From the NCBI GenBank assembly GCA_029262595.1, contig JAJCZB010000071.1, positions 62,001-126,000 of the forward strand: 64,000 nucleotides of DNA, read 5' to 3'. The stretch's first letter is position 1, and each line of letters starts with the position of its first letter. Origin of the DNA: Candidatus Babelota bacterium. Its GTDB lineage: Bacteria; Babelota; Babeliae; Babelales; Vermiphilaceae. Under the pieces are notes generated by a model. The model was not told the origin of the DNA. It saw only the letters and a program-made list of their open reading frames with translations, and searched no databases. Shown here piece after piece: positions 1-33,274 of the stretch. Both the position numbers and the translations under genes were made by a program.

Positions 1-1368
1 GATCCGATTTATGAAGACATCACGGACAGTTATATGTACGTGTACGTCATTCCGAAATTTGTGGTGGCACGTCTGAAATCTCAAAACCCCGTAGTGTCAA
101 AGACGTACATGTCGAAGATTCCTCTGGCGGTTATTGATGCGGTAAGAAAACAAGAGAATGTGAAGCTGGAAGAAGATCAGATTTTTCACTTCAAATGGGA
201 CTCACTTTCACGGGACGACAACTCCCTTGGCGAAGTTCCACTCATGCCTATTTTCAAGTACCTGTGGTTATTCCACACACAATGGAGAGCTCAAGAAGCT
301 CTAGCGGTCGAGAACATCAATCCTTGGTTGATGGTAAGTCCTGCTGCAGGTACTACTATTGATCCCATTAAGACGTACAACCTCCAACGTTGGAGGATTG
401 AGATGCAGCGTAACATTGTTGCCTGGCGTCGGGATCCAAACCATATTGCCTTAGCCCCATTCCCGGTGAACCAGGTTCAGCTGCGCGGTGAATATCGCAA
501 TCTAAACAATATGGATTCGATGAACATGATTGCGGACATGATGACCGTAGGTCTGGGCGTGACACCGTCTTTCCTCAAAGGTGGCGCATCATATTCGAGT
601 GCTAGCGTTGAACTCCGGGTGCTTGAGAATGATTTTCGGAATGTAACCCTTTTGCTGGATGAGTTTATAGATTGGCTTACCAATCTTCTTCGTCGTTTTT
701 ACAATCTTCCTGCTGAAAAAATACACCATCAAGAATTTAAGATGGCAGACGATATCCAGCAGAAGCAAACGGCAATGCAGGCGATGCAGGGTGGATTGAT
801 TTCAAAAGAAACTACAGTAGCTGAATTGGGCTATAATGCTGAAGTTGAAGAAAAGAAGATTAATGAAGAACTGAAGTCTGAGAATAAAAAGATCAAGGTG
901 CAAAATCTTGAGCAAATCAAAGCTCAGAATGAAGCGGCGCGTGAAAACTTCATTATGCAGACTGAGAGCATGGTTGTTCAGCAGCTTGCTCAGGAGAAAT
1001 TGACGGCCGGTGAAGTTCCTGATATTCGAGCTCTTTTTGAACAAGTCGGTAGAAATGAACATAAGAAAATAGCACCGGGTTCAGTAGATGTATCGGAAAT
1101 CGATATGGAACCTCAAGAGCAAGGACTATCCCCTGAACAAGTGGATATTCGAGCTCGCGCATTCCTTAGGGGTCGCGCATCTCCGACATTACGAGAAAAT
1201 GAGTTGATTCTGATGGAAGCGAATAACGCTACGCCTGAAGCGAAGCTGACGGCTAGACGGATTCGTGAACTTATGCGCGAGATGAAACAGCAAGCAGCAA
1301 ATACTGCAGCTCTTACTCCTGCGAAACAAAAACCAGGCAAACGCTCTGCCGGAACAGCGGTGGAGTAA
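1..1368 (+). CDS. Portal protein, C-terminal part (cut by window edge)
   Basis: The reading frame is open from base 1, so the true start lies outside the window; the first internal ATG is at 34. The portal forms the dodecameric ring at the head vertex through which DNA is packaged and ejected. The visible part has the portal crown/stem pattern: a stretch around residues 165-225 (numbered from ATG 34) with LGVTPSFL, GGASYSSASVELR and then a helical clip/stem region ending in a membrane-like LLDEFIDWLTNLLRRF. The C-terminal third is a charged, glutamine-rich helical tail. It heads the virion module, followed four bases later by the next gene. The assignment rests on this pattern and on its position in front of terminase and protease genes; another head-tail connector protein is less likely. 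Confidence 0.7.
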   Translation, partial: DPIYEDITDSYMYVYVIPKFVVARLKSQNPVVSKTYMSKIPLAVIDAVRKQENVKLEEDQIFHFKWDSLSRDDNSLGEVPLMPIFKYLWLFHTQWRAQEALAVENINPWLMVSPAAGTTIDPIKTYNLQRWRIEMQRNIVAWRRDPNHIALAPFPVNQVQLRGEYRNLNNMDSMNMIADMMTVGLGVTPSFLKGGASYSSASVELRVLENDFRNVTLLLDEFIDWLTNLLRRFYNLPAEKIHHQEFKMADDIQQKQTAMQAMQGGLISKETTVAELGYNAEVEEKKINEELKSENKKIKVQNLEQIKAQNEAARENFIMQTESMVVQQLAQEKLTAGEVPDIRALFEQVGRNEHKKIAPGSVDVSEIDMEPQEQGLSPEQVDIRARAFLRGRASPTLRENELILMEANNATPEAKLTARRIRELMREMKQQAANTAALTPAKQKPGKRSAGTAVE

Positions 1369-1371
1369 TGT

Positions 1372-1839
1372 ATGAATGGTATCACTCCAGAGATGGCAGA
1401 GGCCTTATCAGGGGACGACCTTGATGGTGTAGCCGGCCTTCGAATGATCGATCTAATCGATATCAGTACCGCTTGGGGAAAAGACAAGTGGGCTTATTAT
1501 CAAGCTTCTCATGAACTTAAGCTCATAACGATCATCAGTTGGGAACTCAAAGGGCGCACCGATATCGTCTTGCACTATCGAGATCCGCGGATAAGCAAAA
1601 ATCTATGGCATGCTCGGTATGAAGTCAATCTCCGGAAGGCATACACCGCATCGAAAGATATCAGTAAAAATGATTCGTTTGAAGAAGATGTGTTATCGGA
1701 TCTAGGAGACGCTACCCCGCCTAAGAAGGTCGCAAAGAAGGTAAAAAAGAAGCCCGCGTCTAAGAAAAAAACTACGACTAAGAAGGTTTCGGCTAAAAAG
1801 GTAGTAAAGAAGGTGACAAAAAGTGACGGGAGTGCCTGA
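1372..1839 (+). CDS. Unknown protein with histone H1-like lysine-rich tail
   Basis: A 155-residue protein, ATG start three bases after the portal stop. Residues 1-105 form a compact domain with no family I recognise (it contains TAWGKDKWAYY and TDIVLHYRDPRI). The last 40 residues are almost only K, A, V, T, S and P (KKVAKKVKKKPASKKK and similar), like bacterial histone H1-like or AlgP tails, which bind DNA without sequence preference. Lying between portal and the RNA polymerase gene it may be packaged or help hold DNA or the polymerase in the head; that is inference. Similar tails occur on four other proteins of this phage. Confidence 0.7.
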   Translation: MNGITPEMAEALSGDDLDGVAGLRMIDLIDISTAWGKDKWAYYQASHELKLITIISWELKGRTDIVLHYRDPRISKNLWHARYEVNLRKAYTASKDISKNDSFEEDVLSDLGDATPPKKVAKKVKKKPASKKKTTTKKVSAKKVVKKVTKSDGSA

Positions 1840-1871
1840 TTCTTTCTCCATCCAAACAGTTTCCCCAACTC

Positions 1872-4800
1872 TTGGAGAGTGTTCGCCGTGCGGTGGAACG
1901 TTCATTCCCTATTCAATCGAATAAATATCGACTGGAAGTAACAAATCTTAAGTATTCCAATCTTGGACAAGCCAATTCTGTTCGTCGATATGCTCAAGCA
2001 AAATTGAAAGATGGCAGTCATACTGTCACGCTTACAGGCGACGTCAAGATGGTGGATCAGGCTGGAAAAGTCATTGACCAAAAAAGAGATAAGGCTATTG
2101 CCGTAGTTCCAGCTGTTACAAAGTTGGGAACATTCATGCTGAACGGTAAGGATGTTCAGATTGTAAATCAGGTCCGTCGTCGTCCAGGTGTTTATACGGG
2201 TCCACAAATGGACGGCAATGTTTCAGCTCGGATAACCACAGCAGGTGGTGAATATAGGATCATAGTTGATCGTGAGAAATCCAGAATGCTGGTAAAGATC
2301 CGATCAAGACACTTTCCGCTTTACACGTTGCTCCAAGCATTAGGTGCAACAGAACAACAACAGAAGGAGGCATTGGGAGACTATTACGAGCAAACAAAAA
2401 GTGAATCTAATCCGAATATACAGATGCCCGAAATGCGGAACCTCTTACGTAGGACAGAAGCTATCGAGGATCCTGCAACCGAGATACGTGAATTCTTTGA
2501 ATCAAAACCTATGGATGCTGGAGTGAACCAGCAAACACTAGGTGGTAAGTACGGAAATATTTCTCTGGATGCAGTAATCGCGGCAGCCAGAAAAGCAAGA
2601 GACGTAACCAAAGGAGAACGCGAACCGGATGATATGGAATCAATGGCCTTCAAAACCATTCATTCCGCTGAGGACCATATTGCCGAGCGTCTTGAAAAGA
2701 TTCGCCCGCAAATCCAAGGTCGTATCAAGTATATGATGGAAAAGACTGGTACAGTTGACCGAGCCTTGCCCATCTCTATGTTTAGTCAGCCGATAATTGG
2801 TTTTTTCACTGCAAGCTCGTTGTCCCGCTATTCGGGCCAGATGAGTCCTCTCTCTATCCTGTCTCAAAACCTACAAACCACAGTTATGGGTGAGGGTGGC
2901 ATCCAATCTGATAGAGCTATATCAGATTCCCTCCGTACTGTGCATCCATCCCATATGGGAGTCTATGATCCCTCTGCTACGAGCGAATCGTCTCAGATCG
3001 GAATCACGAACCATCTGGCATTAGGAGCCTCGAAAGAGGGCAACGAGATTGTAGTGGAAGTAATCGATGCGAAGACTGGTAAACGCATCAAGGCCTCAAC
3101 AGTCGAATTAGGTAAGTCTGTGTTGGCATTTAGTGATTCTTACCAAGACGGAAAGTGGAACACGGATGATGATGGTAAAGTTTCAGCGATCGGTGAATCG
3201 CGTCGTCAGTTACTTGTCGATCCTAAGGAAGTGGATTACATACTTCCCGCGGCAGCTAATATGTTTTCTGCGGTCAGCGCTCAAATTCCTTTCATTCAAA
3301 ATAACTCAGCTAACCGAGTATTGATGGCGGGACGGCACATGGAACAAGCATCGCCTTTGGTGGATCCTGATGCGCCAGGTGTTGTGGCTACAGTAAATGG
3401 AAAACCTGTAAACAAGATTCTCCATGATGAATTTCAAGAGAAGTCTCCGGTAGATGGTGTTGTCGAACAGGCGCGCACCGATAAAATAATTATACGTGGA
3501 TTAGACGGCGGTAAACACGTCGTAGAGATCCATGATTCGTACCCTCTCAATGATGGAACTTGGTTGAAGCAGCGGCCATCTGTTGCTGCAGGTCAACGTA
3601 TCAAGAAGGGTCAATCTCTAACAACAGATAACTTCTCGGCCAAAGGCCAGTATTCAACTGGTAAGAATCTTAGGACGGCTTTCATGCCCTGGAAAGGATT
3701 GACGTTCGAGGATGCGATGGTAGTCAGTGAGACTGCGGCCAAGAAGCTCACCTCGGAGCACATGTATGAATTACGAATCGATAAAGAACCAGGTATCAAG
3801 GTCGGATTCGCAGGACTTGCACCTCTTCATGTCAGTGGACTTGGAAACATCTCCGCCTTCAAAGGAGATCTTCCTCGTGTGGGATCGAAGTTCAAAGAAG
3901 GGGATGTTGTTATCCCTGCAGTCGCCGAACGACACGTTGATGCCACAACAGCTGAGGCTCGTGGAGCAGCTAAGCTTAGACGCCCTTTCACAGATGCATC
4001 TGTAAGATGGAAAGAACCGTATTCAGGAATCGTAAAGCAAGTTGTTGACACGCCCAGATTTGTCAAGGTTCTCATGGAGACCAATGAGGCTCTTCAGTCG
4101 GGTGACAAATTGAGCGGGCGCGCGGGAAATAAGGGCATTGTGAGTGCCGTGCTCCCCGACTCAGAGATGCCGAAAGATTCTAAGGGTAAACCTTTCGAAG
4201 TTTTATTCAATCCAATGGGGACGGTTGGAAGAGTAAATCCAGGTCTGATGTACGAAGCTGCAGCTGGTAAATTAGCAGAACAAACAGGTAAACAATACGC
4301 GATAGAAAGTTTCGATCCTGAATCCAGTTTAGACAAGGTGCGTAAAGATCTTCGATGGCATCGAATGAACGATACGGAAACCGTAACTGATCCAAATACC
4401 GGTGATGTACATGAGGACGTCGGTGGAGGGGTAGTCAATTGGATAAAGTTGAAACATTCGATTCACAAGAAATGGTCTGCTAGATCAAACGACGGATATA
4501 CTCGTGAGGAACGTCCTGCCAAGGGGCGTCCTACCTCAGCTCAGTCCGTCGGCCCTATGGAGATGTATTCTTTATTATCCAACGGATCAACGGAATTCGT
4601 AAAGGATGTATCTCGATTGACCTCAAATCGGAATGATAAATATTGGACAGCTTTACAACTAGGTCAACCTACACCACCACCTGAAACACCCTTTGTGTTT
4701 GACAAGTTCAAGGCCCACCTTGCAGGTGCAGGTATCAATGTGGAGCAAGATGGAAACAATGTCAAAGCTACACCTTTTACCGATCATCAAGTTATGAAAA

Positions 4801-7800
4801 TGTCGAAAGGTGAGATAACAAGCCCACACACGGTTCGTGCGAAAGATCTGGAGCCCGAAAAGGGAGGCTTGTTTGATGAGCAGCTAACCGGTGGATTTCA
4901 GGGAGATCATTTCAACCATATCACATTGGGTGAGCGGATTCCTAATCCTCTTTATGAGCGTCCGATCGCGTCCATTCTTGGACTCACAGCTAATAAGTAT
5001 CAGGCTTTGGTTACGGGAGCTGCCTCGATCGAGAACACGTTTGAAAACTATTCTGGGGCAAAAGGGAATCTTACTGGTGGTCCTGCGGTGGAATATTTGC
5101 TTTCTAAAGTTGACGCCAAGAACATGACACAGCGTCTGCAACGGAAACTTTCCGGTGCTAACAAGACAGAGAAGCCAAAGATCCTCAAGCAGCTCCGCTA
5201 TCTAGGTGGTCTCAATAGACTTGGTATGAAGGCTGATGAAGCCTACATGACAAAGAACCTGCCGGTTATCCCTGCCCGCTTCCGACCGGTCTACAACAAC
5301 AATAGCGGTCAACTCGTAGTATCTGACCCCAACCACGTATATAGAGAGGTCATGCTAGTAAATGACCAGCTCAAGAATCTCAAGAACCTGGAGGTAGACG
5401 ATGAAGGTTTGCAGAATTCAAGGGAAGGTCTTTACTCTGCCGTCTCTGGAGCCGTCGGTATATCAGAACCCCTTACCCGGAATAGAGAGTTTAAGGGTTT
5501 CATCTCAACGATCGCCGGCAAGCGGAACAAGACCGGACTCTTTCAAGGCAAAGTCATTCACCGCCCAGTTGACCTGTCAGGCAGGTCCACCACCATCCCT
5601 GACCATAAGCTTGGGCTCGACGAAGTCGGGCTTCCTAAGAACATGGCTTTCAAACAGTATTCGCCTTTTATCATCCGTCGCCTGGTACGTGCTGGGATGG
5701 ACCCGTCTAGTGCCAAAAAGAACGTTACGGATCAAACTGACGCCGCACTAAGAGCTCTTCAAGAAGAGATGAAGGAACGCCCGGTAATCATGAACCGTGC
5801 GCCCTCCCTCCATAAATTCTCTACCGTCAGTCTTATGCCGAAGCTTACGGATGGCCTTGCCATCAAGTCGAATCCATTGATTGTCTCAGGTTTGAACATG
5901 GATCACGATGGAGACACCGTAGCCGTGCATGTACCGGTGAGTGAGAAAGCGCGTGTTGAGGCTTTAGGAAAATTACCGTCAAAGAACTTTATGGCGCCTC
6001 GTACAAAATCGGTAATGCATACTCCGTCAAAAGAAATGCTCCTAGGTATTTATCTCATTACCAAGCCTCGTAAGATGACAAGCGTTGTGGTAAAGAGTGC
6101 AACCGAAGCCCTACAACTTTTCCGAGATAAAAAGATCAGGATCAATGACGGTATTATTTACCGAGGAAACCGAACCACGGCCGGACAGTTCCTCATGCGC
6201 GGTGTATTTCCTCCAGATATTCAGTGGGATTTTTCTAAGCCGTTGGACGGCGGTACAGTTCAGAATCTCATAAACCAAACTGGAGAGAAGCATCCAGAGG
6301 CGTTAGGCGCTGTCCTAAATCAAATTAAGGACATCGGTTTCAATTACGTCACAGCTCTTGGGTTCTCGGTATCTCTAAAGGATCTAGATTTTGGAAAGAG
6401 TCATCGTCAGAGAATTCTTCGTAATCTGGTAAAGAACGTTCGACGGTTTGGACCGGATGAAGCTTACAAACGCGGAATTAGTGATCTAGAAAAACTTATG
6501 GATGACAACAAAGAAGGTAACCGCTTTGTTGAGATGTCTGTCGACGCTAAGGCGATCGGTAAGAAAGACGCTGTTCGTCAGCTGATTCTTGCCCCAGTGG
6601 CCTTTCAAGATAATAAAGGCAAACCTGTTCCGGTGCCGATTGATAGATCCTACGCCGAGGGATTGAAACCTTCACAGTATTTCGCTTCTTTCGCAGGTGC
6701 CCGAACAGGTCTCGCTGGTAGAGCTTTAGGTACACGCGATACAGGAGCTTTCTCTAAAGAATTGCTCAATACCACTCTGGACGTGAAGGTTACCATACCC
6801 GATTGCAAAACTCGTAAAGGCATTATGTTACCTATCACTCATAACGATGTGCTCGATCGTTACGGTATTGATGCGCCTTATCATAATAAATTGATCACAA
6901 CAGAAGTTATCAGTTCTCTCCGTAAGAAACACCAATCGATGATTAGGGTTAGATCTCCGATGTACTGTGAAGCCTCAGATGGTGTTTGCCAGATGTGCTC
7001 AGGTCTCAATGAAAACGGTAATAAACATTCTCTTGGGTATCATATAGGTGCAATGGCAGGACAAGCTATTGCTGAGCCTACTATGCAGAGTGTGATGCGT
7101 GCTTTCCATTCAGGAGGGGCCGTTGGTGGTCAGGAATTAGGGTTCAAGCGAATCTATCAAGTTATGTCTTTACCCAATCAGATGAAGGGTCAGGCTCCGA
7201 TCGCTGAGAAAAGCGGTATCGTGACGAATATCCAGAATGCACCTGGACATGGTTGGAATGTGGAAATTGAGGGTAAGAAATATTTCATCCCGAAAGAATT
7301 AGGGATATCCGTCAAAAACGGCCAGCATGTAACCGCAGGTACTAAGTTGTCCAAAGATGGAGTCGTTCATCCAGTGAAACTTACCGAAGTGGCAGGTATT
7401 GACAAGGGTCGAACTCAACTCATAAGTGATTTAAACGAAGCTTATCAGGATTCTGGCATAAGTGTACGTCAAAGAATTTTTGAAACTGTAGCTAAACCGA
7501 TGACGGATAAAGTGAAAATAATAGACCCTGGTGCGGCTTCTTGGAAGTATGGTGTAACTGACGGAGAAGTCCTGTCAGCTAATGTGGTCGCAAAGTACAA
7601 TCGTAATCTGCCGGCAGGCCAACGTATAAAAGCAGATCCGGTAATGCTGGGCATAAAACAGGTACCATTTGCTAGAGGGGACTTTATTTCTCCTTTGATG
7701 CATCAACGTCTACCTAAGCACCTATCAGAAAGTGCTGCGCTTGGTAAGACCACTGATGTTTCGAAGGGTAGTCCTATAGCACAATTTGCTTTTGGATTTC

Positions 7801-7823
7801 CCGGTGAAAAGGCTAAGACGTAA
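1872..7823 (+). CDS. Single-chain RNA polymerase, fused beta and beta-prime subunits
   Basis: A 1983-residue multisubunit-type RNA polymerase core in one chain. Beta part (about 1-960): GTFMLNGK...RRRPGVYTG near 86-110, FFTASSLSRYSGQMSPLS near 311, the HPTHYGR-equivalent HPSHMGVYDP at 358, NSANRVLM near 476, FEDA with E613/D614, and GDKLSGRAGNKG at 744. Beta-prime part (about 970-1983): GLFDEQLTGG, PVIPARFRPV, VIHRPVDLSGRS near 1228, NRAPSLHKF, and catalytic NMDHDGD at 1342-1348, which keeps the three Mg-binding aspartates of NADFDGD. The bridge-helix/trigger-loop region GARTGLAG starts at 1609, and zinc ligands are C1645, C1699, C1706 and C1709. It is much shorter than E. coli beta plus beta-prime. 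TTG at 1872 is a weak start: no good ribosome site precedes it, and in-frame CTG 1836 or ATT 1839 follow GGGAG at 1828-1832. No alpha or omega homologue was seen. Confidence 0.95.
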   Translation: MESVRRAVERSFPIQSNKYRLEVTNLKYSNLGQANSVRRYAQAKLKDGSHTVTLTGDVKMVDQAGKVIDQKRDKAIAVVPAVTKLGTFMLNGKDVQIVNQVRRRPGVYTGPQMDGNVSARITTAGGEYRIIVDREKSRMLVKIRSRHFPLYTLLQALGATEQQQKEALGDYYEQTKSESNPNIQMPEMRNLLRRTEAIEDPATEIREFFESKPMDAGVNQQTLGGKYGNISLDAVIAAARKARDVTKGEREPDDMESMAFKTIHSAEDHIAERLEKIRPQIQGRIKYMMEKTGTVDRALPISMFSQPIIGFFTASSLSRYSGQMSPLSILSQNLQTTVMGEGGIQSDRAISDSLRTVHPSHMGVYDPSATSESSQIGITNHLALGASKEGNEIVVEVIDAKTGKRIKASTVELGKSVLAFSDSYQDGKWNTDDDGKVSAIGESRRQLLVDPKEVDYILPAAANMFSAVSAQIPFIQNNSANRVLMAGRHMEQASPLVDPDAPGVVATVNGKPVNKILHDEFQEKSPVDGVVEQARTDKIIIRGLDGGKHVVEIHDSYPLNDGTWLKQRPSVAAGQRIKKGQSLTTDNFSAKGQYSTGKNLRTAFMPWKGLTFEDAMVVSETAAKKLTSEHMYELRIDKEPGIKVGFAGLAPLHVSGLGNISAFKGDLPRVGSKFKEGDVVIPAVAERHVDATTAEARGAAKLRRPFTDASVRWKEPYSGIVKQVVDTPRFVKVLMETNEALQSGDKLSGRAGNKGIVSAVLPDSEMPKDSKGKPFEVLFNPMGTVGRVNPGLMYEAAAGKLAEQTGKQYAIESFDPESSLDKVRKDLRWHRMNDTETVTDPNTGDVHEDVGGGVVNWIKLKHSIHKKWSARSNDGYTREERPAKGRPTSAQSVGPMEMYSLLSNGSTEFVKDVSRLTSNRNDKYWTALQLGQPTPPPETPFVFDKFKAHLAGAGINVEQDGNNVKATPFTDHQVMKMSKGEITSPHTVRAKDLEPEKGGLFDEQLTGGFQGDHFNHITLGERIPNPLYERPIASILGLTANKYQALVTGAASIENTFENYSGAKGNLTGGPAVEYLLSKVDAKNMTQRLQRKLSGANKTEKPKILKQLRYLGGLNRLGMKADEAYMTKNLPVIPARFRPVYNNNSGQLVVSDPNHVYREVMLVNDQLKNLKNLEVDDEGLQNSREGLYSAVSGAVGISEPLTRNREFKGFISTIAGKRNKTGLFQGKVIHRPVDLSGRSTTIPDHKLGLDEVGLPKNMAFKQYSPFIIRRLVRAGMDPSSAKKNVTDQTDAALRALQEEMKERPVIMNRAPSLHKFSTVSLMPKLTDGLAIKSNPLIVSGLNMDHDGDTVAVHVPVSEKARVEALGKLPSKNFMAPRTKSVMHTPSKEMLLGIYLITKPRKMTSVVVKSATEALQLFRDKKIRINDGIIYRGNRTTAGQFLMRGVFPPDIQWDFSKPLDGGTVQNLINQTGEKHPEALGAVLNQIKDIGFNYVTALGFSVSLKDLDFGKSHRQRILRNLVKNVRRFGPDEAYKRGISDLEKLMDDNKEGNRFVEMSVDAKAIGKKDAVRQLILAPVAFQDNKGKPVPVPIDRSYAEGLKPSQYFASFAGARTGLAGRALGTRDTGAFSKELLNTTLDVKVTIPDCKTRKGIMLPITHNDVLDRYGIDAPYHNKLITTEVISSLRKKHQSMIRVRSPMYCEASDGVCQMCSGLNENGNKHSLGYHIGAMAGQAIAEPTMQSVMRAFHSGGAVGGQELGFKRIYQVMSLPNQMKGQAPIAEKSGIVTNIQNAPGHGWNVEIEGKKYFIPKELGISVKNGQHVTAGTKLSKDGVVHPVKLTEVAGIDKGRTQLISDLNEAYQDSGISVRQRIFETVAKPMTDKVKIIDPGAASWKYGVTDGEVLSANVVAKYNRNLPAGQRIKADPVMLGIKQVPFARGDFISPLMHQRLPKHLSESAALGKTTDVSKGSPIAQFAFGFPGEKAKT

Positions 7824-10897: not shown

Positions 10898-11980
10898 ATG
10901 CTGTCACAAGTCGAACTAGAGAATAAGTTCGGGCTTAGTCCTGAAGCTTGCACATACGTCCTCGATTTTCTTATTGAGGATATCGAAACTGACGTATTTT
11001 TCGGTCAGCAGACATACGAAATCACCGAACACCTAGTCCCTTATTTCAAGATCATGAAGTGCCATCCGATTCAGCTACGCGCAGCGGGGAAGCTTGATTG
11101 GATTAGACCCTTCATGCCCTACGTAATTTACAGACGGATTACGGGGTACGATAAAACACGTATATTCAAGGATGTTTCAGACAAGAAGTTGACGATCGGG
11201 AAGAATCATCATTTATCGGACGGTTTGATAAGTGAAAAGAAGATTGCGACCTTTTGGAATGTTTTCTGGGCAGCAGTTCCCAAGTCCATCAAAGACATAT
11301 TGAAATCTAAGAAACTCATAAAGAATCCACTTTGGGTTCCATTTTTGGAGCTTTTGGGGCTTGATGGTGTGTTCAATGATCCAACCACTATCCCAGAGCA
11401 TATGTTCAAGCATGTGCATCATCGTATAAAATTAGAAGCGATGCTCGAAAGCGCGTTGTTACAAGATCAAATTGTGGAAATTTGCGAGGTGGGTTTTGGA
11501 TGGAAGATGAGTCGGGGAAATCTGAAAACTTATACAGATCTATTTTACCGTCGGGATTGGATGAGCACGCGCGACACAGCGCTATATTTTCATTCGCTCA
11601 CAGGCGGTGAATCGGCAATGAAGCAATCTGCGTTTTCTTTACCCGGTGAAGATTTCTGTAGTAAGTACAATTTGCCTGTGGCTGAAAAGTATCTAAATTC
11701 CATGCGAACAATGGTGGACAAGCTGGAAGATTCAATACAAGCTAACACCACATCCGGTACCCAGGAAAAGAAAGATTTCCGTGATGATGTAAAACTTTAC
11801 TTGCAAGCTCTGGCTCAGATGGAAAATATGGGTGTGACGACCACAGATACGGCAATACCATTCGATGCTATGAAACTGCAAGAAACTAGAGCCCTGACAG
11901 GTGAAGATGCTGAAATCAAAGGAATCGAAATCCCGGCTCTCTCCGAAGCAGTTGACGGTAATACCAGCAAGGCAGGATAA
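10898..11980 (+). CDS. Unknown protein upstream of terminase, 360 aa
   Basis: A 360-residue largely helical protein, ATG start three bases after the preceding stop. It begins with a small helical unit (LENKFGLSPEACTYVLDFLIEDI) and has several aromatic-rich segments (TFWNVFWAAVPKSIKDILKSKK; FYRRDWMSTRDTALYFHSL). The last 60 residues are acidic and polar. Its 3' end overlaps the terminase frame by up to 80 bases, so the two are probably translated together. Position just ahead of the large terminase is where many phages keep the small terminase, but length and sequence do not support that name, so no function is assigned. Confidence 0.55.
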   Translation: MLSQVELENKFGLSPEACTYVLDFLIEDIETDVFFGQQTYEITEHLVPYFKIMKCHPIQLRAAGKLDWIRPFMPYVIYRRITGYDKTRIFKDVSDKKLTIGKNHHLSDGLISEKKIATFWNVFWAAVPKSIKDILKSKKLIKNPLWVPFLELLGLDGVFNDPTTIPEHMFKHVHHRIKLEAMLESALLQDQIVEICEVGFGWKMSRGNLKTYTDLFYRRDWMSTRDTALYFHSLTGGESAMKQSAFSLPGEDFCSKYNLPVAEKYLNSMRTMVDKLEDSIQANTTSGTQEKKDFRDDVKLYLQALAQMENMGVTTTDTAIPFDAMKLQETRALTGEDAEIKGIEIPALSEAVDGNTSKAG

Positions 11981-13577
11981 AAGCGGGCTTTTACGAACCA
12001 AGCAGCGTTTCTCCCAAATTGCGACTCAACATTTCCGTGTTTCTGTAGGAGCGGGTCCCGAGCCGGTCAATTTCTCTCAGCGACCTTACATGACGGCGTT
12101 CATGGATATGGACGCTGAGGAAACTGTTGTTCTCGGGGGTCGTCAGTTTGGTAAATCCACCTGGGGTGGGTTGAACTTAGCCATAAAAAACGCTTCATCT
12201 CCTGGATATAGAACACTTTACACCGCTCCAACTGGAAAACAGGTATCTGTTTTTAGTAATGACGTCTACGCATCGCTTTGCACGATGAGTCCTGCTATTA
12301 AGAAGATCTGCGATTTCAAGAATGAATGGCAGATGGGCGCTCGATCCTTTACGACTGGATCTAAGTGCTATTTTCGATCAGTTTTCCATTCAGCTGATTC
12401 AGCTCGTGGTATTTCTGCAGGTTGGATTCAGTTTGATGAATTTCAGGACATGATCATGGACGTTGTTGGCGTTCTGAAACAGTCCGCCACCAATTATCCA
12501 GATAGACGATTCTTCTACACAGGGACTCCCAAGACATTCTCCAATCAAATCACAACGTATTTTGATCATAGTTGTGGTTACGAATGGATGGTGAAGTGCA
12601 AAAGTTGCAATCATTACAATTATATGGATGAATCCATTCTTGGGAAAAAAGGATACATCTGTCAAAAGTGCGGCAAACCTATAAATATACAAACCGGTGT
12701 TTGGGTTCCACGTAAACCTAAACAGATAGGGATATTCAACGGTTTTAGGGTTCCGAAATTTCTCAATCCGAATATCTCTTTCACTGACGTAATCCGCGAG
12801 CGTGACAATCCCTTCATGACGCGAGCCGCGTTCTACAATGAGGTATTAGGGCTACCTTACGCTCAGGGTGAGTTGGCTTTGACTGTGGGGGACATGAAAG
12901 CCGCTTGCGATGGTAAGCGGGATATGGGCCGTATAGGTACTAAATACCCTTTTCCTTTGGTTGCCGGAGTTGACTGGGGAACAGGGGATCAAGCGGCCAT
13001 CGGGAAAGCAGGAGCTAGAGTTCGAAGTTTCACAGTCGTGACTATAGGTGGTTGGTACAAGGACAAGTTTCGTGTCGTATACATGCGGAAGCTGATAGGT
13101 GAGGAAGCCGATATATACCGTCAACCCGCCGTTGTGAACCACATATTGCGTTCATTTGGTGTCGAAACAGTTGTTTGTGATTGGGGTTTTGGAGCTTCTC
13201 AAAATGCACGACTCATAAATGAATTCGATTGGAGTCCAGATCAGCTTTATGAAGTTCAGTATGGCAGCATGGTGAACCTGGTTAAGTGGAACAGAGAGGC
13301 TCAAAGGTATATCGTAGACCGCACTGAGCAGCATCATAAGCTGATCGATGATATCAAGAGAAGACGAATAACTTTCCCCAAATGGGGGGATACAGGCCCT
13401 TTTCATGAAGATTTCACCTGTATTTTTGTCGAATTTGACGCTATTCGAGGAACAATGCGCTTCGATCATCCGTCTGGTAAGCCCGACGACACTTTTCAAT
13501 CCTTGGTCTATGCGAAATTCGCGTTGGACATCAATCGGGGACATACGAGTAAGTTCTCGCGCGGCCTAGTTGAATAA
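11901..13577 (+). CDS. Terminase large subunit (packaging ATPase and nuclease)
   Basis: The DNA-packaging motor that docks on the portal, pumps DNA and cuts the concatemer. The N-terminal ATPase shows Walker A GGRQFGKST (about 79-87), Walker B IQFDEFQD (about 176-183) and the coupling motif FFYTGTP. A zinc-ribbon insertion CKSCNHYN...CQKCGK (about 235-265) follows. The C-terminal RNase H-like nuclease carries aspartates in AGVDWGTGDQ (about 355), VVCDWGFGAS (about 424) and KPDDTFQS (about 527). Length (up to 558 aa) is normal for the family. The start is uncertain: GTG 11901 and ATG 11907 lie within the upstream gene, and TTG 11952 is also in frame; the first recognisable domain sequence begins near residue 40. 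Confidence 0.93.
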   Translation: MKMLKSKESKSRLSPKQLTVIPARQDKSGLLRTKQRFSQIATQHFRVSVGAGPEPVNFSQRPYMTAFMDMDAEETVVLGGRQFGKSTWGGLNLAIKNASSPGYRTLYTAPTGKQVSVFSNDVYASLCTMSPAIKKICDFKNEWQMGARSFTTGSKCYFRSVFHSADSARGISAGWIQFDEFQDMIMDVVGVLKQSATNYPDRRFFYTGTPKTFSNQITTYFDHSCGYEWMVKCKSCNHYNYMDESILGKKGYICQKCGKPINIQTGVWVPRKPKQIGIFNGFRVPKFLNPNISFTDVIRERDNPFMTRAAFYNEVLGLPYAQGELALTVGDMKAACDGKRDMGRIGTKYPFPLVAGVDWGTGDQAAIGKAGARVRSFTVVTIGGWYKDKFRVVYMRKLIGEEADIYRQPAVVNHILRSFGVETVVCDWGFGASQNARLINEFDWSPDQLYEVQYGSMVNLVKWNREAQRYIVDRTEQHHKLIDDIKRRRITFPKWGDTGPFHEDFTCIFVEFDAIRGTMRFDHPSGKPDDTFQSLVYAKFALDINRGHTSKFSRGLVE

Positions 13578-17022: not shown

Positions 17023-19020
17023 ATGAACGTGAAAGATTTCAGCGATCGTGTCCTTAAGCTTGCGGCCAACGCCACACTCGAAGGTGACGTGCAGCATCGT
17101 ACTCGTTACGAACGTCCTGCTCTCGTCGCTCAAGAAACGCCGTCCAATTTTGGAGCTGACGATCCCTCGATCGCTACAATTGAAGAACCCAAAGAGATGG
17201 CTTCTGGTGCTGAAAAGGCGCAGGAGGATCAGCAAGCACCTTACAATTCTCAAGTCGAAGATGATGAAAACTCTCAAACGGATAATGTAAACAAAGAAAC
17301 AGGTAGTCAAGCGACACCTCATCCGGCTCCAGATATGGAGTTGGACCATCCCGATGAAAGTAATAAAGAAGTCGATGAAAATCTCCTCGACGGTTACAAC
17401 CACGACATCAATATCGATGCACCCCTTTTAGGTGGTGCTGATGAAGGTGAATTTTTGCTAGATGGTTCTGACATGGAAGGCGCTCCACTTTTGGAAGGCG
17501 CTTACGGTCAGGAAACTTTCCTGGATGGTGCTGCTACGGATACACATCACTTGCTTGGTGATTATCGTTCTGGCCTTGTCGACCCGGTAAAGAATAAATC
17601 GGTATCTTCTCCACGAATGCAGAACAAGATGGCCAAAGCCAAAAAGTTGGCTGTGAAAATTGCAGAACAAGCTTTGCCAAAAGGTATGTACGGTATGACT
17701 TCTCCGGCGATGTCCAATTCTGGACAAGCTCCGGTTGTGGATGAAGATGCCGAAGGTGCTCCAAAGTTGGACGGTCCAGAATCAATTACGCAAACATTAG
17801 GTGGTGGCGAGGCCTCAACATTCGATTTTGGTCCAATTTTGGATCGCGCTCGTAAAGAATCCGGGGAGTCCGATAATGGACACGCCTCTGCTGCAGAAGT
17901 TGAGGATTCTCCTTTCTCTAATGAGAATGACGACGCCCCGTTATTGAAAGGTGCCAGGATCGCATCTCTGTTGAGTAAGGATGCAGCCCGTATTCCGATT
18001 TCTCACCGATTACCTGCTCCGGGTCCAAAAATGGAAGCTGGACCACGTTCAGCCAGGAAGCCGGGCGCCGGTCAATCAGAAGCTGTAACTTCTCCCACAC
18101 CGAAACCTACAGTATCAGGAAAGCCTACGCATACTATGGCTGACCTACAGGCCGCCGCAGGTAAAGGACCTACTCAATATCCTACACCTGCTGGGGATCC
18201 GCGTGCATTACAACAGCCTAAAATTAGATCAATGATGGGTGCAGAAGCTCCGCGTCCAGCGACAGGAACTGCGTCCAGCACGCCAGGTGCGGCATCGATG
18301 ACTGGGCGGGAAAGAGCTATTGCTCGTGAGAAATCCCAACAGAATTTAGAGCTGGCTAAGCGCCAGGAATATCTTACCGATACGGCAGGGACGCCACGCA
18401 GTGCTCGTAGACCTGAAACGCGAGCCGGTCGAGCTATGCAAAATTTGAAACTTCGAGCAGGTGGTTTACTACATCCTTTTGAACCACAAGAAGTGAAGCG
18501 TGTTCGTAAGGGCATGGCCCCTGAAGAATCGCAGGCCATGGCTCGTGCTGAACGTGCTGGTGTCGATGCTAAACTTTACCAAGATCTCAAGTCTCGTGGA
18601 TTATCCGATAGAGATCTTCAAGGACTAATGTCCACGCGTGGATCGCGGGAAGCACTTTCTCGTGGAGGGAAAGCTATTCTTTCCCAAAGTGAAGGTGCTC
18701 TCACTCAAAAGGACATGATGGACATGTTGAGTGGGGATCCGGCTAAAACACTGGAAAATGTTTACGATTTGAAATCTGGTAAGGGACGCCGTTTTGCGCA
18801 ATCAGCAGCTTCGGGACGTGGGGAAGATATCTTGAAGACCCAGGAAGAGGCAGCTGCTCGTGCGCCAGGTGACGAACTTATCGATATGCAGAAAGGTATT
18901 CCTAAGGGAATGTTGACGGCCATGATTATGGCCAACGCTCTTCGTCCGCCGAATACAGGTGGTGGTTTTGACCCAATGCAAATGATGATGATGCAAAACA
19001 TGATGAGGCAGCCAGCATAA
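17023..19020 (+). CDS. Low-complexity repeat protein ahead of the prohead protease
   Basis: A 665-residue protein, ATG two bases after the previous stop and overlapping the protease start by one base. The N-terminal 180 residues are very acidic and hold imperfect repeats of the type [AP]LL-x-GA followed by acidic residues (APLLGGADEGE, FLLDGSDMEGAPLLEGAYG, TFLDGAATD, APKLDGPES, APLLKGARI). The middle is proline/alanine-rich and probably disordered; the C-terminal 200 residues are helical and basic, ending in a methionine-rich QMMMMQNMM. Acidic, disordered, protease-adjacent proteins are often scaffolds or internal head proteins trimmed during maturation. That role is inferred; no family is recognised. 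Confidence 0.55.
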   Translation: MNVKDFSDRVLKLAANATLEGDVQHRTRYERPALVAQETPSNFGADDPSIATIEEPKEMASGAEKAQEDQQAPYNSQVEDDENSQTDNVNKETGSQATPHPAPDMELDHPDESNKEVDENLLDGYNHDINIDAPLLGGADEGEFLLDGSDMEGAPLLEGAYGQETFLDGAATDTHHLLGDYRSGLVDPVKNKSVSSPRMQNKMAKAKKLAVKIAEQALPKGMYGMTSPAMSNSGQAPVVDEDAEGAPKLDGPESITQTLGGGEASTFDFGPILDRARKESGESDNGHASAAEVEDSPFSNENDDAPLLKGARIASLLSKDAARIPISHRLPAPGPKMEAGPRSARKPGAGQSEAVTSPTPKPTVSGKPTHTMADLQAAAGKGPTQYPTPAGDPRALQQPKIRSMMGAEAPRPATGTASSTPGAASMTGRERAIAREKSQQNLELAKRQEYLTDTAGTPRSARRPETRAGRAMQNLKLRAGGLLHPFEPQEVKRVRKGMAPEESQAMARAERAGVDAKLYQDLKSRGLSDRDLQGLMSTRGSREALSRGGKAILSQSEGALTQKDMMDMLSGDPAKTLENVYDLKSGKGRRFAQSAASGRGEDILKTQEEAAARAPGDELIDMQKGIPKGMLTAMIMANALRPPNTGGGFDPMQMMMMQNMMRQPA

Positions 19021-20558
19021 TGAAATTTGAAGACTTCTCAGCCAGCGGCAAACAGGTACCTCCCACGCTCTTAAACGACGAGCCGTGGTATTTCCCAATT
19101 CATGGACGTGAGTTTGAAAAATCTGCCTCACAGATATTTATCCCGGAAAGGATAAAAATTGCGATCGCAAACATCAAACCCCGTGACGACGGTATTCATC
19201 TTCTTGTTCATGGGCTTGGTGGTGCTGAGTATTGGGGTGATAATGCTAATGGTGACGCGTTCCCTGAGTACATCAATGGAGAACCCCACTTAGTAAAGAA
19301 TGGTGGAGATTACGGATACGGTACTTTTGAAAAGTTCGCTTATCCTTATCTCGAACACAAGAATCATGACCCCATTCACTCAATTGGCGAAAAGATAAAA
19401 TACGCAGCTTACAACGAACCGATGCACCGCGTCGAAGTTGTTGTTTTCTTAAAACATGCCAAGATTCCCGATTTGGTTGAAAAGGTTGCTCGTGGTGATG
19501 ATGTAGCTTTCTCAATGGGAACTCGCGTTCCTTACGATATTTGCTCGAAGTGTCACAATCAGGCAAAGAATCGTCATCAATATTGTGAACATCTAAAATA
19601 CGCAATGCGAAAGATTCACGATGACGGCACTAAGAATTTTGCAATCAATCCATTTGTTAAATTCTTCGATATGTCCCTGGTAGGGACACCGGCAGACCCT
19701 CAAGCAATGCATCTTTTCAAAATTGCCAAAACACAAACACCTCTCTTCAACGTTCCGGCTGTTCGCGCTTCGATTCTTATTCCAATCGATCTAAAAAAAG
19801 AATCAGATGACAAGCAGGCCGAAATGGATAAGAAAGTTCCACTCTCGATCGAGAAAGTGGACGATGATTTGGTCGGTTCAGCCTCTAAAGTCGTTCCCCA
19901 TGATTTAGAAGATCAGAAACCCCATAAGTCTGTAGTCATCATTCTGAAGAAGAGCAAACCCATTGAGCATAAGCTTTCAGACTTGATGCATTCTGGGATA
20001 TTCCCAATGCAAGAGGAATTGGATGAAGCTGGAATCAAAGACGAGGATATTCCTGAAAAAATGTCGGAGTGCCCTGCACCAGACATGGGCAGCCTAAAGG
20101 AACTTGCTCCGGCCATGACTCACAGGTCTATGCACGGACCTTATTTGACGGTAAGGATCATGAAAAGGGCTTCAGAGTGCCCTGAGAAGCAAATAAAGGT
20201 ATCCAACTTCAATACGAAGCTGGCTCACTTATTCTCCGAAGCAATGCTCGATAATGATTGGCAGGAGAGATACATCGAAAATCTCTCCCGTCCGGAGATT
20301 CTGTATACCGTTATTCCAGAGCAGTTGCATGAGAAACGTGCAGCTCCTTATGGGTTGAAACAGGTAGCGATGGATGTTTCGGCGCCGGCGATTCTTTCTG
20401 CCTTCTTTAGGGGGAAAGCACAACGCGGGCAGGAGCTGAATCCGCTACAGAGTTTCATAGCGAAACATCCTTTGTTGAGTGGGGGCTTGGCCGCCTTCCT
20501 TCACTCGAAAGCGAGCGGTTGGGCGGATAGTTTGAAAGGTCTCACAAAACGCCGTTAA
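19020..20558 (+). CDS. Prohead protease with zinc-finger-like insertion
   Basis: The serine protease that processes the prohead during maturation. The N-terminal 235 residues match the HK97/gp21-type fold in order: GDNANGDAFP near 74-82, catalytic His in HKNHD (H113/H116), catalytic Ser in DVAFSMGTRV (S165), and FFDMSLVGTPADP near 215-226. Between the last two lies an insertion CSKCHNQAKNRHQYCEH with C175, C178, C189 and nearby histidines that could hold zinc. The C-terminal 280 residues are an extension with acidic and helical parts, probably scaffold-like and itself a substrate. It lies directly before the scaffold-like genes and the capsid gene. Confidence 0.85.
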   Translation: MKFEDFSASGKQVPPTLLNDEPWYFPIHGREFEKSASQIFIPERIKIAIANIKPRDDGIHLLVHGLGGAEYWGDNANGDAFPEYINGEPHLVKNGGDYGYGTFEKFAYPYLEHKNHDPIHSIGEKIKYAAYNEPMHRVEVVVFLKHAKIPDLVEKVARGDDVAFSMGTRVPYDICSKCHNQAKNRHQYCEHLKYAMRKIHDDGTKNFAINPFVKFFDMSLVGTPADPQAMHLFKIAKTQTPLFNVPAVRASILIPIDLKKESDDKQAEMDKKVPLSIEKVDDDLVGSASKVVPHDLEDQKPHKSVVIILKKSKPIEHKLSDLMHSGIFPMQEELDEAGIKDEDIPEKMSECPAPDMGSLKELAPAMTHRSMHGPYLTVRIMKRASECPEKQIKVSNFNTKLAHLFSEAMLDNDWQERYIENLSRPEILYTVIPEQLHEKRAAPYGLKQVAMDVSAPAILSAFFRGKAQRGQELNPLQSFIAKHPLLSGGLAAFLHSKASGWADSLKGLTKRR

Positions 20559-23293: not shown

Positions 23294-24418
23294 ATGTCTG
23301 TAGTCTCATCCGCTGAGTTCAACGGGCTCCTTCTCACGAGTCTTAAAGCCGGCCCTGCCATGGAGCATAAGCTGGCCGCTCGCCTGGGTGATTACATCCA
23401 GGAAAAGATTCGCGAGGCAGGAAATGCCCGTAAGATTTTCGACGTCCAAACAGTGACGCCCGAGCAATGTGTCACCAGCACGCAACACGACGAGCTGGAA
23501 TACCACATGCCTCTCGAGCCTCAAACTGTGGCGGTATCTTCGGATATCAAGGGCGGTCCTCCAAATACATGGATGGGTGGCAAGCGCTTCCCAATCCGTT
23601 TCCGCAAGTACCAGACTCACTCGTTGCGTAAAAACGAGACTGAGCTTCTGGCGCACCACGAGCCATTCCTTAAGATCATTGAGCAGAACAGCTTGAAGGA
23701 TCTTCAGGAAGTTGAAGATTTGTTCTTCATCGAGATCGTCAAAGCCAGTATCTGGCTTGCGACTCTCCGTTTGAACAACTCTCCTGCGGCTTCCGGTGGG
23801 TTGCTTGACATCCCTGGTGCAGTTGGTGATGAAGGCACCTACGTTGACAATTTCTTTGCCAACGCAACGCCTTCGAGCTCCAACATCTTCTTGTCGAACT
23901 CACCTGCTCTGTTCCGTGATACCCTCACTGAGCTCAAGCAGATGATTCACAACCGTGAGCTTGAGATTCGCGTCTTCTTGATGCACGTCTCGAACTTCGA
24001 TGACACGCTTCGCTGGTTCTCCAGTGAGGTAGGTCTGACCACGGCTGACAAGATCACCACCGAGGGCTACAAGTGGGCCACAATTGGTGGTATCGAGTAC
24101 GTCACGACTATCAAGGGTAATCTCCGCTACGTTCGACCTGGTCATATCTATGGCTTCGCGAACAAGGAAGCTCTTGGTAAGTTCCTCATCCTTGAAGGTG
24201 TACAGTTCTACATCAACAAGTGGAGAGATGAAGTCGAGCTCTGGGCGAAGGAAACAGTTGGAATGGGTATTGGTAACGTCAATGCTTGCGCCTTGCTGCT
24301 TCTTTCAGGTTCAGCGCCTGTTGACTTCCCAGTGCCGACTCAGTCGCACCCAGCGCAGGTCATCCGGATCTACGCTAACCTTACTACCCGTCCTGATCCA
24401 ACTGACGCAACTCAGTAG
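23294..24418 (+). CDS. Major capsid protein (HK97-fold candidate)
   Basis: A 374-residue protein that best fits the major capsid subunit: right length, right place (after protease, scaffold and decoration candidates, before neck genes), a strong AGAAGGA ribosome site and its own hairpin terminator. The N-terminal 90 residues are helical and polar; the centre holds a long helix (PFLKIIEQNSLKDLQEVEDLF) and the region VFLMHVSNFDDTLRW...GGIEYVTTIKG as in HK97-fold A domains; the end is hydrophobic and beta-rich. Its codons end in C or G more often than its neighbours, as expected for a very highly expressed gene. A structural comparison would settle it. Confidence 0.75.
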   Translation: MSVVSSAEFNGLLLTSLKAGPAMEHKLAARLGDYIQEKIREAGNARKIFDVQTVTPEQCVTSTQHDELEYHMPLEPQTVAVSSDIKGGPPNTWMGGKRFPIRFRKYQTHSLRKNETELLAHHEPFLKIIEQNSLKDLQEVEDLFFIEIVKASIWLATLRLNNSPAASGGLLDIPGAVGDEGTYVDNFFANATPSSSNIFLSNSPALFRDTLTELKQMIHNRELEIRVFLMHVSNFDDTLRWFSSEVGLTTADKITTEGYKWATIGGIEYVTTIKGNLRYVRPGHIYGFANKEALGKFLILEGVQFYINKWRDEVELWAKETVGMGIGNVNACALLLLSGSAPVDFPVPTQSHPAQVIRIYANLTTRPDPTDATQ

Positions 24419-31390: not shown

Positions 31391-32185
31391 ATGGCAAACG
31401 TCCTAAGAGATTGGAAATGGAGCGGGAACAACGTTCAGACCGCTATTGTTGATGGAGAGCATCTATCAGCAGAATCGGCGTTGATCCTTGCTGCACCTCC
31501 AAGATTGGAACAATTGAGTCTCCGTGAGGCTCAGATTGCGCAAGGTAATACCGTTGGCGCAAACGTAACACCGGAAGCCCACTCGCAGTTGGTGCCGATC
31601 GGTCTTCTTCAGGACTTCACCGTAGGTCAGACGAAGCCTCAGCAGGAGATCTTCGAAATCGGATCTCGGCTGCGATACTTTGTCGATGGCCGTATGAGAG
31701 CTAGCTTCCAGGTAAGCCGAATCATGTATTTCGGACCATCCTTGATGCGGTTACTCTATGCATATGTTCCCGCGTCAAAGATCAGTCGTTTCGCTCAGCA
31801 GCTTAACGCTGGTACTTTGGACAATGACGCTCTTGCCGGTTTGGATCAGTTTCCTGAGATCGAAGACTTCGATGCTCCGGGTTATGGCAATAACGCAGGT
31901 TTTGGTATCGATCAAAACGCTTTGGTACAAAACTCGATCGATAACAACCGTGACTTCTGGATCAACCTACTATCCCTAGTCTTCAATCAGCCGACGGGTC
32001 TTGTGGTTATCCTCAAGGGAGCCAATAACCGGGCTTACGGTTCATTCTATATGGAATCGGTCAAGGTTGAGAACCACGGATTCAATGTAAGTTCAGGAGC
32101 TGTTATTATCTCCGAAACATTGAGTGGTCAATTCAAGAGGGTTATACCTATTCGCGTACAGCAGTTCTCGCTGACGGGAGGCTAG
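31391..32185 (+). CDS. Tail tube protein
   Basis: A 264-residue protein directly downstream of the sheath, the usual place of the tube subunit. Features fit the tube fold: an N-terminal strand region, VPIGLLQDFTVGQTKPQQ, a long loop with FEIGSRLRYFVDGRMRASFQ, and a final strand set (GSFYMESVKVENHGFNVSSG; VIISETLSGQFKRVIPI). It forms the inner channel of the tail. The TAG stop shares bases with the stop of the convergent sigma gene. No terminator is visible at the junction. Confidence 0.8.
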   Translation: MANVLRDWKWSGNNVQTAIVDGEHLSAESALILAAPPRLEQLSLREAQIAQGNTVGANVTPEAHSQLVPIGLLQDFTVGQTKPQQEIFEIGSRLRYFVDGRMRASFQVSRIMYFGPSLMRLLYAYVPASKISRFAQQLNAGTLDNDALAGLDQFPEIEDFDAPGYGNNAGFGIDQNALVQNSIDNNRDFWINLLSLVFNQPTGLVVILKGANNRAYGSFYMESVKVENHGFNVSSGAVIISETLSGQFKRVIPIRVQQFSLTGG

Positions 32186-32883
32186 GTCAGCTTTTTGTAA
32201 AGCTTTCTGAGAGCGGAATTTTCTATTTCAGTTATCGCCTTCGGACTCTTATGGAGCACGGAGGCGATTTCGTCTGTGGTATGTTCATGCCCGCCGATGC
32301 CATATCGTGATTTGAGAACGTATTTCTCGGTGTAATCAAGAGCGCCGTTGTTCAGGGCTGCGCGAAGACGACTTTTCATTTCAGTGTTGGGTTCATAGTT
32401 GTTGCTGTCTATTACGTCTTCTGCATCTTCCACGGGTACAAAGCCCGCTTCAGTCTTATCTGCGATGTTGTTTATCGGTCGCATCTGCTTTGCATCAGCT
32501 TCGATCTCTTTTCGGATTCCGAGTTTTATCCAGCTCATAGCATACGTGATAAAATACACATCGTATTTTGTGTCAAATCTGCGGATGGCTTCGAAGAGAC
32601 GTTCCACAGCGGCGTGGAAACAGGAGAAAAACAGATCTTCGGCATTTGCTCGGCCGAAACGATGTTTGTCCACGGCGTTTGTAGCTTCTTTGGTGATCAC
32701 CCGGTAACAGGATTGAACTAATCGATGCACAGCTACTTCACAACCGTCTTGAGCGGCGATCAGAAGGATTCTCTCCTCCTTCTTGGTCAGACGCTTGCCG
32801 GCATCAGTCTCTTCGAGAAACTTTTTAATGCTCTCGGAGTTGAAGTTGGCTAGTCCAAATATGGATTTACTCGGATTTTGCAT
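32182..32883 (-). CDS. Sigma-70 family RNA polymerase sigma factor
   Basis: A phage sigma factor of about 233 residues (up to 245 from ATG 32919). Region 2 is clear: RANAEDLFFSCFHAAVERLFEAIRRFD, then FITYAMSWIKLGIRKEIE, the -10 recognition and melting helix, given here as adjacent pieces. Region 4 is also clear: DYTEKYVLKSRYGIGG, HTTDEIASVLHKSPKAITEI, NSALRKLYKK, a helix-turn-helix for the -35 element. There is no long region 1.1, so it is of the alternative-sigma type. ATG 32883 is preferred because it overlaps the upstream stop by only 17 bases. It may direct the phage-encoded polymerase, host polymerase, or both to late promoters. Confidence 0.88.
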   Translation of the reverse strand: MQNPSKSIFGLANFNSESIKKFLEETDAGKRLTKKEERILLIAAQDGCEVAVHRLVQSCYRVITKEATNAVDKHRFGRANAEDLFFSCFHAAVERLFEAIRRFDTKYDVYFITYAMSWIKLGIRKEIEADAKQMRPINNIADKTEAGFVPVEDAEDVIDSNNYEPNTEMKSRLRAALNNGALDYTEKYVLKSRYGIGGHEHTTDEIASVLHKSPKAITEIENSALRKLYKKLT

Positions 32884-33274
32884 CAATCTCTGATATCCCA
32901 AATGATTTATCAAGAGCATTCATCACTTGTTCGAACACAGTAGGTACGATGGCCGAGTCGATGTAATTGAAGCTTACATCGCTGTTAGACATGTACTTGT
33001 TGCGTTCAAACGTTACTTCATAGTCCGGCCTATACTTCCGTACCCAGCTTTGGAAAAACAGGCTGAGATCATCGTGGAATTTGTAGGACGTCTTCTCGAA
33101 GTGCAGGATGAAATACTTGAGCTTTGGATCAGAGTGATAATTCGAAGATATATCGATTATGGAACGTCCGATTTTGAACTTCAATCGACCGTCGGCAGTC
33201 ATACCCTTAGAGGATATTCCCTCTTGAGAGTATTTGTTCCACCATTTTCCACCGGGTGTCTTGGAAGTTACCAT
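32867..33274 (-). CDS. Unknown protein, 135 aa
   Basis: A 135-residue protein overlapping both neighbours (TAATG at its start; 17 bases with the sigma gene at its end). It begins with TPGGKWWNKYSQEG and is mixed alpha/beta with many aromatic residues (YFILHFEKTSYKFHDD). No family recognised. Tight coupling to the sigma gene may mean shared regulation. Confidence 0.5.
   Translation of the reverse strand: MVTSKTPGGKWWNKYSQEGISSKGMTADGRLKFKIGRSIIDISSNYHSDPKLKYFILHFEKTSYKFHDDLSLFFQSWVRKYRPDYEVTFERNKYMSNSDVSFNYIDSAIVPTVFEQVMNALDKSFGISEIDAKSE

Follow-up and report, generated by a model that had tools for sequence, protein, structure and literature searches.

The polymerase gene and its reading frame

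The stretch of DNA analysed here (the window) comprises 64,000 nucleotides, positions 62001-126000, of contig JAJCZB010000071.1 (hereafter C71) from the Candidatus Babelota bacterium assembly GCA_029262595.1. Close to its start, on the + strand, lies a gene encoding the β and β′ parts of a bacterial-type RNA polymerase (RNAP) as one chain. In the list of open reading frames (ORFs) and their translations, the frame runs from 1872 to 7823 without an internal stop, has TTG as its first listed start and gives a protein of 1983 amino acids (aa). By alignment, this protein consists of a whole β followed by a whole β′, with a joint of approximately six residues. The β half (residues 1-957; 1872..4742) matches Pfam PF04565 and PF00562 and is 25.5% identical to Escherichia coli RpoB (234 of 916 aligned positions). 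The junction EQDGNN (residues 958-963; 4743..4760) was placed by alignment with β tails and β′ heads. The β′ half (residues 964-1983; 4761..7820) matches PF04997, PF00623, PF04983 and PF04998 and is 27.0% identical to E. coli RpoC (276 of 1024 positions). RNAP family matches follow one another along the chain from β to β′. The Pfam matches Rpb2_6 (E=3.4e-44), Rpb1_5 (1.9e-25) and Rpb1_2 (4.5e-21) are far above chance, and β′ chains of the PDB match with E values down to 2.8e-96.

The true start is probably the ATT at 1839, 11 codons upstream of the TTG at 1872, because the upstream codons ILSPSKQFPQL align with MLNPSTQFPNLL, the N-terminus that begins at an ATG in the nearest relative (L024, 64% identical to the window protein). 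The frame is open from 1827, and the gene with this start would span 1839..7823 and encode 1994 aa. ATT is a rare start codon in bacteria. A possible ribosome-binding site, GGGAG, was read from the sequence at 1828..1832 (+), six bases before the ATT.

Motifs, active centre and lost regions

The original prediction, made from the sequence of the window, described one uninterrupted frame with β motifs followed by β′ motifs. This was borne out at 1872-7823, where all of its quoted motifs and four zinc cysteines were located. The β motifs begin at residues 86 (GTFMLNGK), 358 (HPSHMG), 612 (FEDA) and 744 (GDKLSGRAGNKG), and the β′ motifs at 1228 (VIHRPVDLSGRS), 1342 (NMDHDGD) and 1609 (GARTGLAG).

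Aligned with the E. coli enzyme, the window protein keeps E813/D814, K1065, K1073, R425, D460/D462/D464, R780 and M932/R933/H936. Their positions here were taken from the alignment. The β FED (residues 612-614; 3705..3713) corresponds to E. coli F812, E813 and D814, and the β lysines K746 and K754 within GDKLSGRAGNKG (4101..4136) correspond to K1065 and K1073. The catalytic NMDHDGD (5895..5915) supplies D1344, D1346 and D1348 in place of D460, D462 and D464. The β′ DxDxD metal site and the β lysine pair are thus both present, which on that feature places the protein among two-barrel, bacterial-like RNAP cores. GARTGLAG lies in the bridge-helix region (residues 1593-1631; 6648..6764), and MRAFHSGG at residue 1742 belongs to the trigger loop (7068..7121), with M1742, R1743 and H1746 for M932, R933 and H936. 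The second zinc site (6804..6998) is formed by C1645, C1699, C1706 and C1709 (E. coli C814, C888, C895 and C898). Loss of the active centre, against which the original prediction had asked for a check, was not found: the alignment shows the catalytic residues in place, in agreement with the predicted folds.

Regions absent relative to E. coli include, among others, β 224-340, 937-1048 and 1125-1178, and β′ 68-99 (which we take to be the N-terminal zinc ribbon) and 943-1129. A large stretch of the flap region and several E. coli insertions are gone. In the region that corresponds to the rifampicin pocket of E. coli (2808..3014), the changes are Q513 to R, D516 to G, H526 to Q, R529 to Q and S531 to T. 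The polymerase is predicted to be rifampicin-insensitive because D516, H526, R529 and S531 are changed.

Predicted folds

AlphaFold2 was run on two overlapping parts of the protein, residues 1-955 with 25 relatives and residues 570-1769 with 28 relatives. The model of residues 1-955 (predicted local distance difference test (pLDDT) 80.3, predicted TM-score (pTM) 0.72) matched bacterial β (8r6s_C) over 785 residues, with Z 30.3 and a root-mean-square deviation (rmsd) of 3.7. In the model of residues 570-1769 (pLDDT 79.8, pTM 0.66), model residues 391-1043 matched bacterial β′ (9ukt_D) over 643 residues, with Z 25.2 and rmsd 4.0. The comparison with a bacterial core that the original prediction had proposed recovered both folds in parts; the β′ end beyond model residue 1050 was barely covered.

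One-chain and two-gene relatives

Relatives were collected from IMG/VR in two scans. Scan 1 used β patterns, and the best 80 of 206 relatives by match to the window protein were examined. Scan 2, chosen because scan 1 leaned on β and on the window protein, used a β′ N alignment, and the best 80 of at least 411 were examined. Thirty-six of the 80 loci of scan 1 were one-chain (33 clear of contig ends), 39 were two-gene and five were cut by a contig end; β and β′ N stood in one frame in 80/80. Scan 2 gave 61 one-chain loci (58 clear of contig ends), three one-chain loci with much of β cut off, 10 two-gene loci, two cut loci and four others. One locus, L125, was counted as one-chain with its last part (after β′ position 882) in another frame. 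Six contigs were common to both scans. The one-chain frame is kept across relatives that are 30-65% identical, and its recurrence in 36/80 and 61/80 loci speaks against the joining of two genes by assembly error. The claim of a reduced single-chain form in a phage held as regards the single gene; the case is not a lone one, since the family of one-chain polymerases is large and has a two-gene sister form in named phages.

That two-gene form, which accounts for most loci that are not one-chain, consists of a gene for β and β′ N and a separate gene for β′ C. The second gene was found within the stretch examined at 32/39 two-gene loci of scan 1 and 9/10 of scan 2, and three of the 10 in scan 2 had an in-frame stop inside the β part. 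The four other loci of scan 2 comprised one contig that starts inside the gene and three whose polymerase frames each hold three in-frame TGA codons, the codon itself having been read in two of them. In L142, L144 and L145 (4306-10080), the polymerase frame is broken by single in-frame stops only; these are TGA in L142 and L144, and L145 has the same layout. In L142 and L144, TGA may code for an amino acid; alternatively, the genes may be split. LAGLIDADG, intein-like inserts were seen in the polymerase of three relatives: in β at the HTSE motif in L024 (8227-9252), and directly after the catalytic DFDG in L067 (14120-15700) and L083 (14153-15800).

Among the phage-collection matches that cover 80% or more of the protein are Vibrio phages D69, D181 and D148 (the last known here from its search match), and the strongest single match is Salmonella phage Arash. 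Staphylococcus phage SA 1306 Kay and Enterococcus phage Efs 1-1-1 (83% and 85% coverage) were rejected as relatives; they carry separate cellular-type rpoB and rpoC and were taken for cells. Records OR844998 and OR846602 of the phage collection hold separate cellular-type rpoB and rpoC in phage-labelled contigs, probably through contamination. A scan of genome contigs gave three archaeal loci only, from which no host range was drawn.

Among 26 related records, many of which may be fragments, a sigma profile matched 22 and the alpha model PF01000 matched none. Polymerase matches tiled one enzyme in 18/18 records searched. A portal homologue lay within 4 kb upstream in 85 of the 132 loci with at least 1.5 kb of upstream sequence, and again in 85 with a seed derived from the window portal and its own hits. 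The T4-type capsid family PF07068 matched 0/28 related records at E<=0.01 (T4 positive control, E=1.6e-122). Phages with a separate β′ gene also exist: Carin-5, in which β′ precedes β, and RHph_Y65 and Va2, which were examined for β′. PF07068 scored over the cut-off in Carin-5 and RHph_Y65 and under it in Va2.

Phylogeny and direction of change

In a tree of 65 phage rows and three cells, the phage rows lay on one side of a branch (support 100) and the two-gene form made one clade (99). A tree of 121 phage rows and four cells gave the same arrangement, with a long branch (support 100) and a two-gene clade (99), and both combined trees need one change of architecture. The two-gene clade was recovered at 100/100 when 36 selected rows (32 phage, 4 cells) were analysed under a mixture model, and the β half-tree needs one change. 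The phylogeny called for in the original prediction was obtained in part: the combined trees set phage rows of the present family against three or four cells.

The single chain looks ancestral, with the two-gene form arising by one later split near the cyanobacterial/phiKZ split site. This direction of change rests on parsimony: non-cyanobacterial cells have an unsplit β′, and the two-gene loci group together as a single clade. In the two-gene records, matches to the first piece end at residues 1403-1438 and matches to the second begin at residue 1433 or later; the alignment of cyanobacterial RpoC1 (9dvs_D) with the model reaches window-protein residue 1452. Several results weigh against a single split. 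The 36-row mixture-model tree does not settle the deepest branching within the phage clade, and a branch separating the single-chain rows from all others occurs in 6% of its bootstrap replicates. The short β′ N tree needs two changes, with weak supports. At 7/39 two-gene loci in scan 1 and 1/10 in scan 2 no β′ C gene was found in the stretch examined, and the second gene was assumed to be there.

According to PMC7598289, the β′ of phiKZ-like phages is split at the cyanobacterial site, for which a cyanobacterial origin or independent splits are the hypotheses. A separate split in the present family favours the second. We tentatively suggest, as a possibility that is somewhat less probable than its negation, that this tailed-phage lineage descends from a one-chain, sigma-directed, alpha- and omega-free, virion-carried core that split once near the cyanobacterial/phiKZ-like β′ site. 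If so, that site would be a recurrent weak point and would not testify to cyanobacterial ancestry. In the tree the change has a direction: one family-wide fusion and then, on the best reading, one split near the site used to argue for a cyanobacterial origin of the phiKZ-like enzymes.

The phage contig and neighbouring genes

C71 is 178,574 bp long with identical ends of 141 bp, because of which it is apparently a complete tailed phage binned with the bacterium. That the polymerase is phage-encoded, as first proposed, was confirmed by these terminal repeats and by portal, terminase and head genes. The polymerase gene has the portal gene upstream and the terminase gene downstream; simple gene calls place it within a long series of genes on the + strand. 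The 3′ part of the portal gene occupies 1..1368 (+; frame opening at C71:61425), with matches to a PHROG portal (E=0.0023) and, by phmmer, to Arash gp204, annotated as portal (E=1.4e-56). Between it and the polymerase is a small gene of 155 aa (1372..1839, +) with no family match in Pfam or PHROG; a single small ORF occupies the same place in Arash and D69. Downstream on the + strand are the terminase large subunit (11901..13577; PHROG 675, E=7.6e-62), a candidate head maturation protease (19020..20558; PHROG 18299, E=4e-7) and a candidate major head protein (23294..24418; PHROG 2522, E=2.3e-9; no Pfam match).

A sigma-like factor of 245 aa is encoded at 32182..32919 (-), with matches to PHROG 351 (E=3.5e-23) and, over the cut-off, to Pfam Sigma70_r4 (E=6.4e-6). 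The phage has another sigma-like gene (E=4.9e-10) at about 1621-2055 of L018, equal to C71:146521-146955 (+). A search at E<=0.001 detected a single polymerase on C71. The assembly consists of 71 contigs, and the bacterium carries its own rpoB and rpoC as two distinct genes on contig C60. The original prediction also held that the phage lacks alpha and omega. For alpha this stood: the single model used, PF01000, had no match on C71 and within the assembly matched contig C59 only. For omega the evidence is weak, as the model matched nothing anywhere in the assembly. A promoter search of C71 upstream regions returned Shine-Dalgarno-like AGGAGGTAG elements. This 9-base sequence stands upstream of five of 57 spaced C71 genes (0.0 expected in shuffles).

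Comparison with known polymerases

Arash (gp206 and gp216) and D69 carry β and β′ N in one frame, with 32% and 31% identity to the window protein. Like the window phage, they place the polymerase after the portal and one small ORF, have no alpha match and have two or more sigma matches. They differ in encoding the β′ C part (about 606-609 aa) in a gene of its own, whose bridge-helix and trigger-loop motifs are strongly altered (Arash gp216, L003 17277-19097; D69, L001 11139-12968) but canonical in the window protein. In Vibrio phage D181, a homing endonuclease divides β further.

The multi-subunit RNAP-encoding Caudovirales (mReC) encode β and β′ (PMC7481178). The present family resembles them in its alignable β and β′ and in forming a tailed-phage clade apart from cells. 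The two most likely overlap, the one-chain layout having passed without remark there; the one-chain L151 comes from metagenome 3300017989, which is also the source of mReC1 and mReC3. There are differences, within the accessible parts of PMC7481178. That paper treats β and β′ as subunits, and both of its uses of 'fus-' concern crAssphage. The eight capsids detected among its 97 mReC contigs are all PF07068, the family that matched none of the 28 records of the one-chain/two-gene family. Its NADxDGD filter would drop the window NMDHDGD, whereas 30/35 one-chain rows have NADFDGD.

The virion and non-virion RNAPs of phiKZ-like phages and AR9 share with the window polymerase a bacterial-type core and the lack of alpha or omega. 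As described in PMC7598289, they comprise 4-5 polypeptides and two enzymes without a recognizable sigma; in the window phage the core is a single chain, one enzyme was detected, and two sigma-like genes are present. The crAss phi14:2 gp66, YonO and P23-45 gp64/gp96 polymerases also hold both barrels in one polypeptide, but are described in PMC10770324 and PMC7281927 as having diverged strongly and kept limited similarity to the cellular subunits, whereas the window protein aligns along the whole of β and β′. PMC10770324 further mentions cellular derivatives with fused barrels, without names, and PMC7281927 the fused RNAP of linear cytoplasmic plasmids. Bacterial fused rpoBC and the linear-plasmid enzyme, compared here by description, show the same fusion of the two large subunits in a cellular or plasmid setting.

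The one-chain layout is not described in the accessible portions of PMC7481178, PMC7824862, PMC10770324, PMC7281927, PMC13282480, PMC12619734 and PMC9123017; an earlier report may exist elsewhere. Phage polymerases of this general type are known from the mReC, and on those sources the one-chain layout seems new.

Proposed activity and alternatives

It is likely that the gene encodes a working, minimal, bacterial-type RNAP core as one polypeptide, which would transcribe phage genes with a phage sigma. The tether between β and β′ would do the work of the alpha dimer, which ordinarily joins the two, and the two barrels of the chain would form the usual active centre. One or both of the phage's sigma-like factors would most likely direct transcription of phage genes. 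Activity, sigma use and independence from the host polymerase are inferred. The gene sits in the head and packaging cluster directly after the portal, for which reason late expression and carriage in the virion are proposed: the polymerase may be made late, be carried in the virion and transcribe the early genes of the next infection. Judged by gene position, the chance of packaging is about even.

Several observations count against this reading. Taken whole, the 1200-residue model superposes poorly on single chains (Foldseek best TM 0.48, rmsd 22.9, E 5.5e-51), and its trigger-loop end has pLDDT <50. The window NMDHDGD departs from the NADFDGD of most one-chain rows, with all three aspartates retained, and its GRAGNKG has A where at least 28/35 one-chain rows have H. 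The Sigma70_r2 match of the 245-aa factor is weak and under the Pfam cut-off, four of the 26 related records (possibly fragments) have no sigma match, and no portal is nearby at 47/132 loci with at least 1.5 kb upstream. No clear promoter motif was found in 57 upstream regions of C71 genes (simple gene calls). Host alpha or sigma could also bind the one-chain polymerase.

The strongest alternative, to which we give even chances, keeps the one-chain polymerase outside the virion, made after infection for middle and late genes while the host polymerase serves the early ones. One polymerase was found per genome, unlike the virion/non-virion pair of phiKZ-like phages, and phage sigma-like genes are present, both of which would suit such a role; the place in the portal-terminase cluster instead suggests late expression with the structural genes. 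That the protein no longer makes RNA and has a structural or regulatory role in the virion is very unlikely. Its position among structural genes and two unusual residues in a catalytic motif would fit, but the three aspartates, both lysines, the bridge-helix arginine, the trigger-loop M/R/H and the zinc cysteines are all kept.

Some bacteria fuse rpoB and rpoC, among them Helicobacter and Wolbachia, and these bacterial fusions keep alpha. Recent uptake by the phage of a diverged host or bacterial fused rpoBC is nevertheless highly improbable: the separate rpoB and rpoC of the binned bacterium are 25-34% identical in pieces, and the long branch with support 100 splits the 121 phage rows from the four cells, in a tree without fused bacterial rpoBC. 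An assembly or sequencing error joining two genes, conceivable in an assembly of 71 contigs, can be practically dismissed, given the same continuous frame in dozens of separate contigs and a β/β′ junction held in one frame in the public records of Arash and D69.

A working enzyme of the proposed kind would be a near-canonical RNAP core cut to one polypeptide plus a sigma factor. It would offer a direct way to ask what alpha and omega are for, and a single-gene enzyme for structures and in-vitro transcription. The two-gene form occurs in Salmonella phage Arash, whose record gives a laboratory host strain (ATCC 14028), and virion content and drug response are thereby testable.

Other features of the contig

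Outside the window, C71 carries 26 tRNA genes and a tmRNA gene (L013 4402-13888). Within the window, a C5 cytosine methyltransferase is encoded at 41145-42713 (-; Pfam E=2.4e-31).

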